From positions 1 through 45,274 of the forward strand of contig NZ_JAJFZK010000021.1 of NCBI RefSeq assembly GCF_020731355.1: a stretch of 45,274 nucleotides of DNA, given 5' to 3'. Position 1 is the first letter of the stretch. Every line of letters begins with the position of its first letter. The position numbers and the translations under genes were made by a program. The notes below the pieces were generated by a model, which was not told the origin of the DNA, searched no databases, and saw only the letters and a list, made by a program, of their open reading frames with translations. This document shows positions 29,037 to 45,274 of the stretch, piece by piece. The DNA comes from Bacillus sp. REN16. Lineage in GTDB: Bacteria > Bacillota > Bacilli > Bacillales > Bacillaceae_L.

Positions 29037-29136
29037 TTCTTATCTTCTAGCATTTTGCTACTGGAATTGGCACAGTACTTAATCGTCTGTTGCCGAGGTA
29101 TCGCAGGGCCAGTCCCTCCACCTCTCTGGATAAGAA
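29037..29136 (-). ncRNA. SAM-I (S-box) riboswitch aptamer
   Basis: On the minus strand, the 100-base element begins TTCTTATCCAGAGAGG and has the conserved GTGGAGGGACTGGCCC, GATACCTCGGCAAC and closing ATGCTAGAAGATAAGAA. P1 pairs TTCTTATC with GATAAGAA perfectly. These are the defining S-box features. It should shut off the cyclase/MetE-like operon when SAM is plentiful. Confidence 0.97.
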
Positions 29137-38174: not shown

Positions 38175-38213
38175 ATGAACAAATGCATATAAGGATACTT
38201 CATATCCTTACAA

Positions 38214-38288
38214 ACCATTTGTAGTCAAGCTTTTTACGGCAGCTTGGTAGAAACGATCGGGCCATATCCCCGAACATATACAAAATTA
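38214..38288 (-). ncRNA. Guanine riboswitch aptamer
   Basis: On the minus strand, the purine aptamer core is clear: GATATGGCCCGATCG, GTTTCTACCAAGCTGCCGT (P3 with the kissing loop) and GCTTGACTACAAAT, closed by P1 TTTGTA/TACAAA. The ligand-specifying base is C (GACTAC, not GATTAT), which indicates guanine or hypoxanthine rather than adenine. It sits upstream of pbuG. Confidence 0.95.
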
Positions 38289-38290
38289 GT

Positions 38291-38319
38291 ATATTAATAT
38301 AATGGAAAAAGTCTAACAA
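38291..38319 (-). promoter_or_regulatory. Promoter of pbuG
   Basis: TTGTTA (38319-38314), a 17-base spacer and TAATAT (38296-38291) on the minus strand lie immediately before the riboswitch. Confidence 0.75.
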
Positions 38320-39938: not shown

Positions 39939-39973
39939 AACGACAAGTACTCATCGGTACTTGTCGTTTTTTC
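39939..39973. terminator. Bidirectional terminator
   Basis: A perfect 12-bp stem AACGACAAGTAC / GTACTTGTCGTT with a 6-base loop and T runs on both sides, between the DUF1648 gene and the convergent MFS gene. Confidence 0.92.
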
Positions 39974-41234
39974 ATCCTGAAGAAGGATTAAGCTTCATTT
40001 TTGCTTCATAGGCGCTGAAGATCCTGCCGTAAAAATAAGCGAAGCTTCCTTGAAGGCCAGCTGCAATATAAAAAGGAACGGCCAAGGCACCTAATCCAAA
40101 AAGGTAGCCCGCTATATATGGGCCGATCGACATGGGCAGCCTCATTGAAAGAAGATTAATGCTCGATGCAAAGCCACTGCGGTGACCTCGGGTAAGGCTC
40201 ACACTTAATGCTTGTTGTGCTCCTTGTGAACCTCGATTTAAGGCAGTTCGTAGAATATAAATAATCGAAACGAGCGCATATGAAGAAAACAGCGGCATTA
40301 ATACTAAAAGAAGGCACGCCATGAAACGGACCATTACGATTGAATGAACTGTGCCATGCTTGTGCGAAATCCTTGCCTGAAAAATTGAAGTCATCCCGGT
40401 TGCGAAAAATGTTAAGGCTAATGTGCTGCCAATTTGAACGCTGCTCACCCCAAATTTTACAGAAAACCAATAAGCCATCATCGGTCCTGTCAATCCAATT
40501 GCAATTCCATTCAAAACATTGATCCCTGCTAGTTTTAAAATGGCTGTATTTTCTTCCTTGGTAATTTTTTGGTCTTTGATTCTGTGTTGCTTGTCCAACG
40601 GCTGCTTCTGTATGACTCGCGTTTCGGTTTCACTCGAAATCGTTAAAATAATTGAGGTCGTCACAAGCGACAAGGCAAAAGTAACATAAAAGGCAAGCTG
40701 GTAGGTAGAAGCTTGGGGAGCAAATTCCCCAATGCTCATCGTTCCGACAAGCACCGCACCTGTCGCCATCCCGAAAAAACTAAGTGCATTATTCAGGCTA
40801 TAAATTTTTCCGCGTTCAGACGGTTTGATAAAGGCCGCAAGCCAAGCTTGTTCTGCTGGGGCAAATGGACTTGCCGAACCGGCATCTGCTTTTCCAAAAC
40901 CAGAAAATGTGATGGCGATGAACAAAAGAATCGGATTGGTTGTCATGATTCCAATCAAAGCACATCCCGCGGTTAACAGCTCGGAAATAAGGATAAAGGG
41001 TTTCCTGCCTTTTCGGTCGCTGATTACACCAATCAACGGCGCAAGGAAGACCCCAAGCAACCCGCCAGCTGCAAGCACCGCACCGATTGTCACAGCGCTC
41101 CACCCTAAAGCGTCAAGGTACAGAGCTAGCACAACCACCATCATGCCTTGTCCAATGCTGCGTATCGTGTTGACCAGCATCAGCTTTTTGACCACTGGAT
41201 GTATTTTATTGGGATTGTCTTCTCTAATTAGCAT
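39972..41234 (-). CDS. MFS transporter
   Basis: A 420-residue major facilitator with twelve helices. The inter-helix 2-3 motif A is GVISDRKGRKPF, and the N-terminal part has NTIRSIGQGMMVVVLALYLD. A charged central loop (residues ~195-230) separates the halves. The N-terminal half has a conserved GFGKADAGSASPFAPAEQAW. Such proteins are often drug or metabolite exporters, and the substrate is unknown. The start is ATG 41234 behind AAGTGGTG. It lies beyond the 52-bp hairpin array from the pqq operon on the same strand, but a pqq terminator makes joint transcription unlikely. Confidence 0.87.
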   Translation of the reverse strand: MLIREDNPNKIHPVVKKLMLVNTIRSIGQGMMVVVLALYLDALGWSAVTIGAVLAAGGLLGVFLAPLIGVISDRKGRKPFILISELLTAGCALIGIMTTNPILLFIAITFSGFGKADAGSASPFAPAEQAWLAAFIKPSERGKIYSLNNALSFFGMATGAVLVGTMSIGEFAPQASTYQLAFYVTFALSLVTTSIILTISSETETRVIQKQPLDKQHRIKDQKITKEENTAILKLAGINVLNGIAIGLTGPMMAYWFSVKFGVSSVQIGSTLALTFFATGMTSIFQARISHKHGTVHSIVMVRFMACLLLVLMPLFSSYALVSIIYILRTALNRGSQGAQQALSVSLTRGHRSGFASSINLLSMRLPMSIGPYIAGYLFGLGALAVPFYIAAGLQGSFAYFYGRIFSAYEAKMKLNPSSG

Positions 41235-41377: not shown

Positions 41378-41905
41378 ATGAAGGACTTTTAGGTGTGGGG
41401 GTTGCGGTGTTTGGGCTTTCATAGCACCGTTGAAGGACCTTCCGGGGGCAGGATGGCGGTGTTCGGGACTTCATAACGGCTATGAAGGACTTTCCGATGG
41501 CGGGCTCGCGGCGTTCGGGCTTTCATTACGCGATGAAGGACTTTCCGGGGGAGGACCAGCGATGTTCGAGCTTTCATTTCCGGGATGAAGAGGATTTTGC
41601 AGTGATACCTAGCTCGTTTTCCCCTTCATAACTCCGATGAAATGGATTTCCACGAAATTCTCAACTCGTATTCCTCTTCATATCTCCGATGAAAAGGATT
41701 TGACCAAGATCCCCACCTCGTTTTCCTCTTCATATCTCCGATGAAGAGGGTTTGCCCTAGATTCCCACCTCGTTTTCCCCTTCATAACTTCGATGAAACG
41801 GATTTGGACGAGATCCCCACCTCGTTTTCCCCTTCATAACCCCGATGAAGAGGATTCAGACGCGATCCCCACCCCGTTTTCCCCTTCACAAACCCCAATA
41901 AAAAA
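41378..41905. repeat. Array of about ten 51-52-bp units, most with a hairpin
   Basis: The triplet ATG of a recurring ATGAA (TTGAA in the second unit) starts at 41378, 41430, 41482, 41533, 41585, 41637, 41689, 41741, 41793 and 41845, a spacing of 52 with one 51. A decayed unit follows near 41898. From the second unit on, each ATGAA is preceded by TTCAT, giving a hairpin; the best is CCTCTTCAT-N7-ATGAAGAGG at 41725-41749. Units 1-4 have G+C-rich linkers (CGGTGTTCGGGCTTTCAT type). Units 5-10 have linkers like GATCCCCACCTCGTTTTCC. The linkers are themselves repeated, so this is not a CRISPR array. The period does not keep a reading frame. Confidence 0.9.
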
Positions 41906-41920
41906 TTCCACACTTTCATT

Positions 41921-41968
41921 AAAAAAAGATACCAAAGGCATTTTATAAAAATGGCCATTAGTATCTGG
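41921..41968 (-). terminator. Terminator of the pqq operon
   Basis: On the minus strand, an imperfect stem pairs AGATACTAATGGCC...TTTT with AAAATGCCTTTGGTATCT and is followed by TTTTTTT. It lies five bases after the pqqE stop codon, between pqqE and the hairpin array. Confidence 0.72.
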
Positions 41969-41972
41969 TTTT

Positions 41973-43079
41973 TTACTTTATTTTTCGATAAATCAGCGGT
42001 TCGCGTTCCTCAACCAACTTATTATTTGCCTCCTGAACTGCTTTTTCAACAATATGATGATCTGGCGCCAAGTGACAGACGGGATCGGTTGCTCCCGCAT
42101 CTCCAGTCAGGGCAAACGCCTGACATCGGCACCCGCCGCCGTCTTGATGCAGCATGTCACACGACCGGCACGTTTCCGGCAGCCATTCATCCCCTCGAAA
42201 TCGATTAAACGAATTCGATTCATACCAAATATCATTTAATGCTCGCTGACGCACATTTTCAAAAGAGATTCCTTCAATCATCCCGGCCGTAGGGCATGGA
42301 AGGACATCTCCATTTGGTGCTACCGTTAGTGCAATCGCTCCCCATCCACCCATACAAGGCTTTGGTGTTGATTCATAATAATCAGGAATAACCCATATGA
42401 TTTCCATTTCTTTTCCGAACCGCGCTCTTGCTGACTCGTAAATCTCACTTGCCCGCTCGATCTTCTCTTTACTCGGCATGAGCCGTTCCCTGTTGAGCAA
42501 GGCCCAATTATAAAACTGTGTATTTGCTAACTCTAACCGCTCTGCTCCCATTTCATGGGCAAACGTAATGATCTCATCCAACGTATCAATATTTAACCGG
42601 TGTAAGACGACATTTAACGATAAGTGCATTCCCGTACGTTTAACCGCTTCGACGGCCTTCCGCTTCTTTTCAAATGCTTTAAATCCACCGATTCTATCCG
42701 AAAGCTCTGCTTCTCCTGCTTGAAAGCTGATCTGAACATTGGCTAACCCAGCTTCCTTTAATCGCAAAGCCTTTTCCTCTGTTAATCCAATCCCGCTCGT
42801 AATCAGATTTGTGTACATTTCTAGTGAACTCGCATGTTCGATGAGCTCATCTAGGTCCGGCCATAATAGTGGCTCACCGCCAGAAAAATGAACCTCAACC
42901 ACCCCAAGGTCTGCCGCCTCCGATAAGACCCTGAGCCAATCCCCTGTTGACAGCTCCATTTCCTTTAATGTCATTTCAATCGGATTTGAGCAATACGGAC
43001 AATGCAGCGGGCAACGATGCGTTAGCTCAGCAAGTAACGAAAACGGCGGTTGCACCCTAAGTTTCTTTGACTCTAGCAT
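41973..43079 (-). CDS. pqqE: PqqE, radical-SAM PqqA cross-linking enzyme
   Basis: A 368-residue radical-SAM/SPASM enzyme that forms the carbon-carbon bond between the Glu and Tyr side chains of PqqA. The SAM-cluster motif CPLHCPYC is at residues 23-30, followed by HFSGGEPLLWPDL. The SPASM-type cysteines are in KPCMGGWGA, LPCPTAG and the C-terminal CRSCDMLHQDGGGCRCQAFA, then TGDAGATDPVCHLAP, which is nearly diagnostic for PqqE. The start is ATG 43079 behind GGTGGTGGTG. It overlaps pqqD by 23 bases and is the last gene of pqqABCDE. Confidence 0.97.
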   Translation of the reverse strand: MLESKKLRVQPPFSLLAELTHRCPLHCPYCSNPIEMTLKEMELSTGDWLRVLSEAADLGVVEVHFSGGEPLLWPDLDELIEHASSLEMYTNLITSGIGLTEEKALRLKEAGLANVQISFQAGEAELSDRIGGFKAFEKKRKAVEAVKRTGMHLSLNVVLHRLNIDTLDEIITFAHEMGAERLELANTQFYNWALLNRERLMPSKEKIERASEIYESARARFGKEMEIIWVIPDYYESTPKPCMGGWGAIALTVAPNGDVLPCPTAGMIEGISFENVRQRALNDIWYESNSFNRFRGDEWLPETCRSCDMLHQDGGGCRCQAFALTGDAGATDPVCHLAPDHHIVEKAVQEANNKLVEEREPLIYRKIK

Positions 43080-45232: not shown

Positions 45233-45274
45233 CCCACACGATGTGGGTCATGAAGACGTTGCCACAGGATGTGG
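45233..45274. promoter_or_regulatory. Two copies of a CCACA-N3-TGTGG palindrome upstream of pqqA
   Basis: CCCACACGATGTGGG (45233-45247) and CCACAGGATGTGG (45262-45274) are two almost identical 13-base palindromes with centres 28 bases apart. They could be binding sites for a regulator of the pqq operon. The second copy touches the window end, so more may follow. Confidence 0.5.

Follow-up and report, generated by a model that had tools for sequence, protein, structure and literature searches.

Palindrome arrays phased at 52 bp in Bacillus relatives and their association with a NERD protein

The array described here lies in a window of 45,274 nucleotides (the whole of contig NZ_JAJFZK010000021.1 of Bacillus sp. 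REN16, assembly GCF_020731355.1), and belongs to a dispersed family of repeats at the DNA level that occurs in many Bacillus relatives. We describe the anatomy and near-constant period of these arrays, the states of one orthologous site, and two new links, one between the strand polarity of the arrays and replication, observed along the replichores of two chromosomes, and the other between the arrays and a NERD protein, whose gene co-occurs with them and often adjoins them. The best reading, by analogy, is that array and NERD protein may form a partnership like that of REP sequences and RAYT, with a nuclease instead of the HUH transposase, and we give it a probability of roughly 0.55.

Anatomy of the arrays and spread of the family

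The window array (41378..41889, no strand assigned) consists of ten units, each an imperfect palindrome of about 45 bp of the type ATGAAG...CTTCAT, separated by 7-bp spacers, once by a 6-bp one. Units of two types, A and B, make up two successive sub-arrays, and the change from one to the other falls on a unit boundary near 41584. The A type comprises unit 1, the first complete one (41378..41422), unit 2, with a TTGAA arm (41430..41474), unit 3, followed by the 6-bp spacer (41482..41526), and unit 4 (41533..41577). The B type starts with unit 5 (41585..41629) and continues with units 6 (41637..41681), 7 (41689..41733), 8 (41741..41785), 9 (41793..41837) and 10 (41845..41889), the last with a TTCAC end. 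Tandem Repeats Finder (TRF) reports period 52 twice, at 41404-41577 (3.4 copies) and 41584-41888 (5.9 copies). The sequence-only reading of this DNA had counted ten ATGAA/TTGAA arms and a decayed eleventh. The ten arms are found at 41378, 41430, 41482, 41533, 41585, 41637, 41689, 41741, 41793 and 41845, with spacings of 52, 52, 51, 52, 52, 52, 52, 52 and 52 exactly as claimed, and the eleventh (AATAA) is at 41897 or 41898. On the other side, unit 1 is preceded only by a weak outside arm, which matches in 4 of 5 letters and is not at the standard spacing. With as many as 3 mismatches allowed, the window contains 24 occurrences of the motif TTCATAACNNNGATGAA where 9.8 are expected, and none of 100 shuffles reached 24.

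The array is non-coding and occupies the gap between two genes on the minus strand, named by sequence reading rather than by a family search. A gene for a PqqE-like radical-SAM protein (41973..43079) has its 3' end toward the array, 83 bp away, and an MFS transporter gene (39972..41234) has its 5' end toward it. Between the stop of the former and the array lies its intrinsic terminator (approximately 41918..41972, minus strand; hairpin of -14.3 kcal/mol and a T-run), so that the flanks are the terminator and the MFS gene, as described before. A coding repeat was ruled out, as 52 is not divisible by three and the open reading frames listed over the array, four in all, have only 51-58 amino acids. 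No Rfam family reaches the gathering score over the window array, and no description of these arrays was found in the literature, as far as titles and the beginnings of abstracts of the papers listed show, which agrees with the earlier suggestion of a possibly undescribed element.

Judged by most array edges, the unit would be an imperfect palindrome of 45 bp (ATGAAG-N33-CTTCAT), followed by a 7-bp spacer. Its ends are inverted repeats of about 10 bp, of the ATGAAGGACA...TGTCCTTCAT type. The hairpin first described, TTCAT-7-ATGAA, is present, but it is probably set in the wrong frame and corresponds to the junction between units, because most array edges fall inside its 'loop'. When written in a 52-column register, most arrays finish with a whole ATGAA...TTCAT unit. 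Over 99 arrays, an outside arm, counted when at least 4 of its 5 letters match at a spacing of 5-8, is lacking at 64 of the 90 left edges and 60 of the 96 right ones; it is present at the other 26 and 36, respectively, compared with 11% by chance. In the genome of the window (G000) such arms are found at 2 of 17 left and 5 of 17 right edges. Since outside arms exceed chance, the unit boundary is not universal, and the whole-unit rule is valid at roughly two thirds of the edges, the others bearing at least one extra arm.

The lengths of the parts are nearly fixed. Left free between 3 and 14, the loop is 7 in 385 of 394 cases, and the linker, free between 15 and 60, is 35 in 357 of 394; most of these loci were picked by their 7-bp loop, and the arrays of G000, which were not so picked, give 7 in 103 of 108 and 35 in 92 of 108. 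Chains of units, restricted to spacers of 6-8 and units of 44-46 and including some chance chains (the edge recount keeps 99), have a 7-bp spacer in 546 of 576 gaps, and 594 of their 687 units measure 45 bp. Across 90 arrays, covariation with the mirror position is seen at positions 7-10 of the unit, and the opposite at positions 12-13. The changes between neighbouring units show no clear preference for pairing within the unit or across the junction (373 vs 393; by loci, 29 vs 40).

Some variants of this architecture were also observed. The arrays of G095 (L184-L186) have a unit of 42 bp and a spacer of 9 bp, with a total period of 51, and some of their arm changes look, by eye, compensated across the junction. 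In Alkalihalobacillus bogoriensis (L090, L106, L117) some array ends carry TTCTATTGGACA / TGTCCAATAGAA in place of the usual arm, and look like distinct terminal units of the array. Two arrays of Heyndrickxia coagulans (L100, L124) have in common a right-hand boundary motif like TGGACACC...AGTGAAAT.

In G000 there are 65 BLAST matches to the window array, and in the 17 regions fetched from it period-52 arrays of 2.1 to 31.9 TRF copies are found at many unrelated loci. A scan of genome_contigs with two CTTCAT-N7-ATGAAG junctions at free distance (periods of 37-67 allowed) returned at least 113 stretches, and nearly all of the 80 loci listed have period 52. These loci belong mostly to genera that we place in Bacillaceae, together with a few, among them Ureibacillus, Lysinibacillus and Ammoniphilus, which we take to be members of other Bacillales families. 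In the own and the listed scan loci the start-to-start distance is 52 in 348 cases; a distance of 51 is seen 33 times and one of 53 eight times, and other values are few. Junction pairs are present in 16 of 60 genomes (own included), and the reversed control pattern in none. With a looser pattern, 132 of 299 genomes of the order have some match and 33 have at least 5 forward matches, the maximum for the control being 2 on either strand. A constant period with changing sequence, the sign for which the sequence-only reading had proposed to look, is thus what related genomes display, with a period near 52 and varying sequence.

Other repeats were noticed alongside these arrays. G000:C3 carries another tandem family, with 20/40-bp units of the TGCATATTTCTACGCGTAGA type (L035, 1-208 and 398-614). 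In G146 (L178-L183) one short array recurs in six similar repeat flanks, possibly, as a guess, near rRNA operons. Bacillus sp. MRMR6 has an array-bearing segment of about 600 bp twice, with 87% identity (L061, 2972-3571; L119, 2798-3342).

Co-occurrence and adjacency with a NERD protein

When 217 flanking proteins were clustered, a single neighbour stood out by its recurrence, at 7 loci in 7 genomes, the next cluster (3) coming from the same loci. This neighbour is a NERD protein (PF08378 by Pfam, in 4 of 4 tested). A profile (A1) was built from six array-adjacent NERDs and searched over 299 genomes. Arrays (at least 5 matches) are present in 20 of the 28 genomes with a NERD at E<=1e-130 and in 13 of the 271 others (p=1.8e-16); with a looser NERD cut the values are 27/45 and 6/254 (p=6.7e-21), and by genus 12/17 and 7/99 (p=3.3e-8), all in statistics that treat genomes as independent though they are related, and with 64 genomes outside the NERD list, without a match. 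Contrasts are also seen within genera: G008, which has no array pair and whose best NERD is a distant paralogue, stands against G000, G001 and G003, and likewise G170, G195 and G284 against G145 and G220. In the genus g31, NERD and arrays are both found in G194 only.

The two are often physically close as well. An array lies within 210 bp 3' of the NERD gene in 24 of 33 loci, compared with 3 of 416 background genes, taken from G131 and G184 only (p about 3e-29), and with two knowingly chosen loci removed (G156 C22, G131) the adjacency is 22/31 (p about 4e-27). Units flank the NERD gene on both sides in 6 of the 33 loci. Grouped by synteny within 2.5 kb, the 39 NERD loci give 20 groups, and 18 of these have units beside NERD, two of the 18 resting on loci that were found through their arrays. 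The distribution of adjacency over a tree of 43 NERD proteins can be explained by 8 changes, whereas shuffles require 14.6, and none of 500 shuffles is as low. The NERD gene of G000 is outside the window (G000:C3:99344-100252), where it adjoins another array.

The association has exceptions on both sides. Nine of the 33 NERD loci are without an array within 210 bp, and 20 further loci (second copies, or best hits elsewhere) have one within 210 bp on either side in 6 cases and none in 14. Seven distant NERDs (47-54% identity) have no array, and are no real control because their host genomes have few or no arrays. G009 (95 array matches) and G063 (27) contain only weak NERD matches (5e-22 and 2.7e-12, respectively), G010 has a close NERD and no arrays, and in G158, G178 and G079 no array adjoins the best NERDs, one of the G079 copies being cut by the contig end. 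At the loci of G060, G131 and G156 (C22) NERD is not one open reading frame of at least 200 amino acids, yet the arrays persist; it is one intact frame in G145, G117, G062, G024, G225 and G288.

The proposed NERD partner is predicted to be a nuclease of the PD-(D/E)XK class and to carry, in addition, a zinc ribbon and a helical tail. Its assignment to the domain family comes from the Pfam match and from the conserved D...E-x-K core: the residues D74...E87-V-K89 and five cysteines (zinc ribbon) are invariant in 6 of 6 proteins. The AlphaFold model is modest (pLDDT 65), and with Foldseek it gives only one match with E below 0.001, and low TM-scores; several of the top matches are, we presume, PD-(D/E)XK nucleases. 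The best sequence match to a solved structure (E=0.037) is to what we take to be a zinc ribbon. In the literature searched, no link was found between NERD proteins and repeats. The domain is widespread and, to the knowledge of the authors of the SmdA paper, its function had not been studied in any bacterial protein before SmdA of S. aureus (PMC9040797, accessible part). SmdA has the domain family PF08378 in common with the array-linked NERD and, in contrast to it, is a membrane protein of cell division.

Replication polarity and change of unit number

In two chromosomes, G184 and G131, the array strand that is rich in purines coincides with the leading strand. The G131 contig starts at dnaA; its 68 forward half-junctions are found at 0.206-2.175 Mb, while 31 of the 32 reverse ones are at 3.2-4.33 Mb and one at 0.943 Mb, and the sampled GC skew flips between 2.50 and 2.74 Mb. 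Of the 20 arrays fetched from this chromosome 19 follow the replichore: on the right arm 15 of 16 have more than half purines on the plus strand (14 at 0.81 or more, one at 0.69, and one at 0.49), and on the left arm all four have 0.13 or less. As a control, 155 intergenic segments of G131 and G184 have a mean leading-strand purine content of 0.533 (sd 0.050, maximum 0.67), and 14 of the 16 right-arm arrays of G131, with 0.81-0.97, lie above all of them. In G184, among the matches listed, 19 of 19 arrays follow the replichore, 11/11 below 2.19 Mb being purine-rich on the plus strand and 8/8 above it purine-poor; the sampled skew flip is at 1.99-2.10 Mb, and three arrays at 2.03-2.19 Mb are near or slightly past it. 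The effect is weaker in mixed genomes, where array polarity agrees with the local GC skew in 54 of 68 cases and is clearly opposite in 10, and in G000, where 13 of 17 arrays exceed 0.5, mostly weakly. Of the 31 rows for NERD loci that have a downstream value, 28 show a polarity in line with the local skew (27/30 without a single-unit row).

One convergent gene pair was followed through related genomes: between its genes there are 7 units in G000, a single or decayed unit in G001 and G003, and none in G002 and G004-G007. These different states at an orthologous site indicate that unit number changes in place. The comparison is neutral as to direction, meaning gain or loss, with the single units being seeds or relics. 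For the 'expanding mobile hairpin' proposed earlier this is a partial match: unit number does differ at one orthologous site and the units are tied to a gene for a predicted nuclease that occurs in many different places. A target-site duplication, as a MITE or a derivative of an insertion sequence would leave, was not recognised; by eye, the 7-bp flanks of the arrays do not match the spacers, and the one site compared with empty sites shows no clear duplication. In G015, a genome without arrays, the orthologous gap (L342, upstream of the lipA end) is filled by a quite different family of C-rich degenerate repeats.

Known systems, proposed working and alternative explanations

By analogy, the nearest relatives of the array/NERD system in working would be the REPtrons. 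As described in the parts of the REP/REPIN and RAYT papers available (PMC3116915, PMC3733652), these also consist of short extragenic palindromes, clustered or in tandem, beside a gene for an enzyme that processes DNA, which they sometimes flank on either side, an arrangement which the NERD loci share. In P. fluorescens SBW25, tandem arrays of REP at about 2 Mbp are reported to be forward and those at about 4 Mbp reverse, on opposite sides (PMC3116915). The arrays are not REPtrons by membership, because the enzyme class differs: that of REPtrons is an HUH/Y1 transposase, and the partner of the arrays a NERD (predicted PD-(D/E)XK). In addition, the arrays have a near-strict 45+7-bp phasing, unlike REPtrons, and the gene neighbours of NERD differ between genera. 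REP palindromes bear a GTAG or CGTC tag at one end (PMC3733652, as far as that source was accessible); the conserved ends of the arrays are ATGAAG/CTTCAT, by eye in printed arrays rather than by a dedicated search for the tags. An RAYT/HUH partner was considered and rejected, as Y1_Tnp (PF01797) is found in 11/12 array-bearing and 8/12 array-poor genomes, and in none of the proteins of G003, which has 91 array matches.

Minisatellites or VNTRs resemble the arrays in their head-to-tail repeats, higher-order repeats and copy-number change between relatives, as seen at the orthologous site, and differ in that the unit architecture and period of the arrays recur at unrelated sites and across genera, with a linked gene family. 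CRISPR arrays have regular spacing and partly palindromic repeats as well. Here, in contrast, the inner segments repeat one another and are not unique spacers (the TRF units of G000 are 72-96% alike across the whole period-52 unit), no Cas names are among the matches listed for the 20 flanking proteins searched, and the array pattern has no match in viral_contigs, the result by which a phage origin was rejected. KOPS, SRS and Chi are short dispersed motifs oriented by replication direction. The arrays share this orientation, in G131 and G184 and more weakly across mixed genomes, and differ in being sparse palindrome arrays.

With NERD inferred as the partner of the palindrome arrays, the partnership may work as follows. 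The NERD protein would recognise the inverted ends of the unit and nick or cut there, perhaps on the single-stranded lagging-strand template at the fork. Repair after cutting would change the unit number in place, so that NERD would act as driver of unit gain, and spread to new gene-free spots beyond terminators would be rare. Somewhat more tentatively, and with odds that we judge a little short of even, NERD nucleases and phased palindrome arrays may constitute a separate class of genetic element, in which a PD-(D/E)XK gene, embedded in the palindromes that are its own targets, would seed arrays with 52-bp phasing and replication polarity and amplify them across Bacillaceae chromosomes. If the partnership is real, it would provide the first proposed biological role for this NERD subfamily, as far as searched, and the link to a defined DNA palindrome offers a concrete candidate substrate. 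It would also mean that HUH transposases are not the only enzymes able to run a repeat family in bacteria, a different class of nuclease being able to do so too, and arrays locked in period and polarised by replication would be a natural record of repeat change at forks. The presence, absence, copy-number and broken-gene states in close relatives make the idea directly testable.

A rather unlikely explanation is that the arrays are passive minisatellites, with a palindromic unit in gene-free spacers whose copies are gained and lost when replication slips or recombination is unequal; the NERD link would then reflect old arrays near some NERD genes and hot spots, and the polarity strand-biased mutation or slippage. 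The higher-order repeats within the arrays (104, 154, 156, 208 and 359 bp) speak for this explanation, as does their position just beyond gene 3' ends (median of 83 bp to a facing stop codon, n=91; 159 bp to a facing start, n=63). So do the flanking genes, which apart from NERD have no common theme among the 20 flanking proteins searched, many being unrelated housekeeping genes, and the persistence of arrays without an intact or close NERD. Passive change accounts less well for the units beside NERD in 18 of 20 synteny groups (two via array-found loci), for array presence and absence tracking NERD within several genera, and for the right-arm arrays of G131 that exceed every intergenic control; moreover, the inner sequence diverges, yet unit and spacer lengths are nearly fixed. 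More doubtful still is a polar element of chromosome maintenance, in which the arrays bind a protein that reads replication direction, as a KOPS/SRS-like guide for a translocase of the FtsK/SpoIIIE type or a site of fork passage, with a five-turn phasing that would place all sites on one face. The replichore polarity of G184 (among the matches listed) and of the arrays fetched from G131, the period near 52 bp and the location outside genes are all in its favour, but G131 has only about 25 array loci, and among the matches listed none at 2.18-3.2 Mb, around the skew flip. Many relatives have no arrays, unlike what an essential guide would require, and polarity is only moderate in mixed genomes and weak in G000.

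The remaining alternative, a structured RNA in which transcribed hairpin arrays have a regulatory role, was also part of the sequence-only reading. The covariation of the inverted arms would suit it. Codirectional genes flank 44 of the 80 chains that were classified (three of which are single units), convergent genes 26 and divergent genes 10, with 20 further chains at locus edges or within open reading frames, so that convergent sites are common. An intrinsic terminator stands between gene stop and array at 42 of the 91 facing gene ends, no Rfam family covers the window array at gathering score, and on the sense strand of 40 codirectional arrays G-U mismatches (96) are not in excess over A-C (92). 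The absent G-U bias and the terminators ahead of the arrays led us to reject RNA as the main reading, and we regard it as very improbable; placement and the absent G-U excess together favour a DNA-level element. Elsewhere in the window, Rfam identifies a SAM riboswitch (29037-29136), a purine riboswitch (38202-38303) and a partial Bacillaceae-1 RNA (45233-45274).
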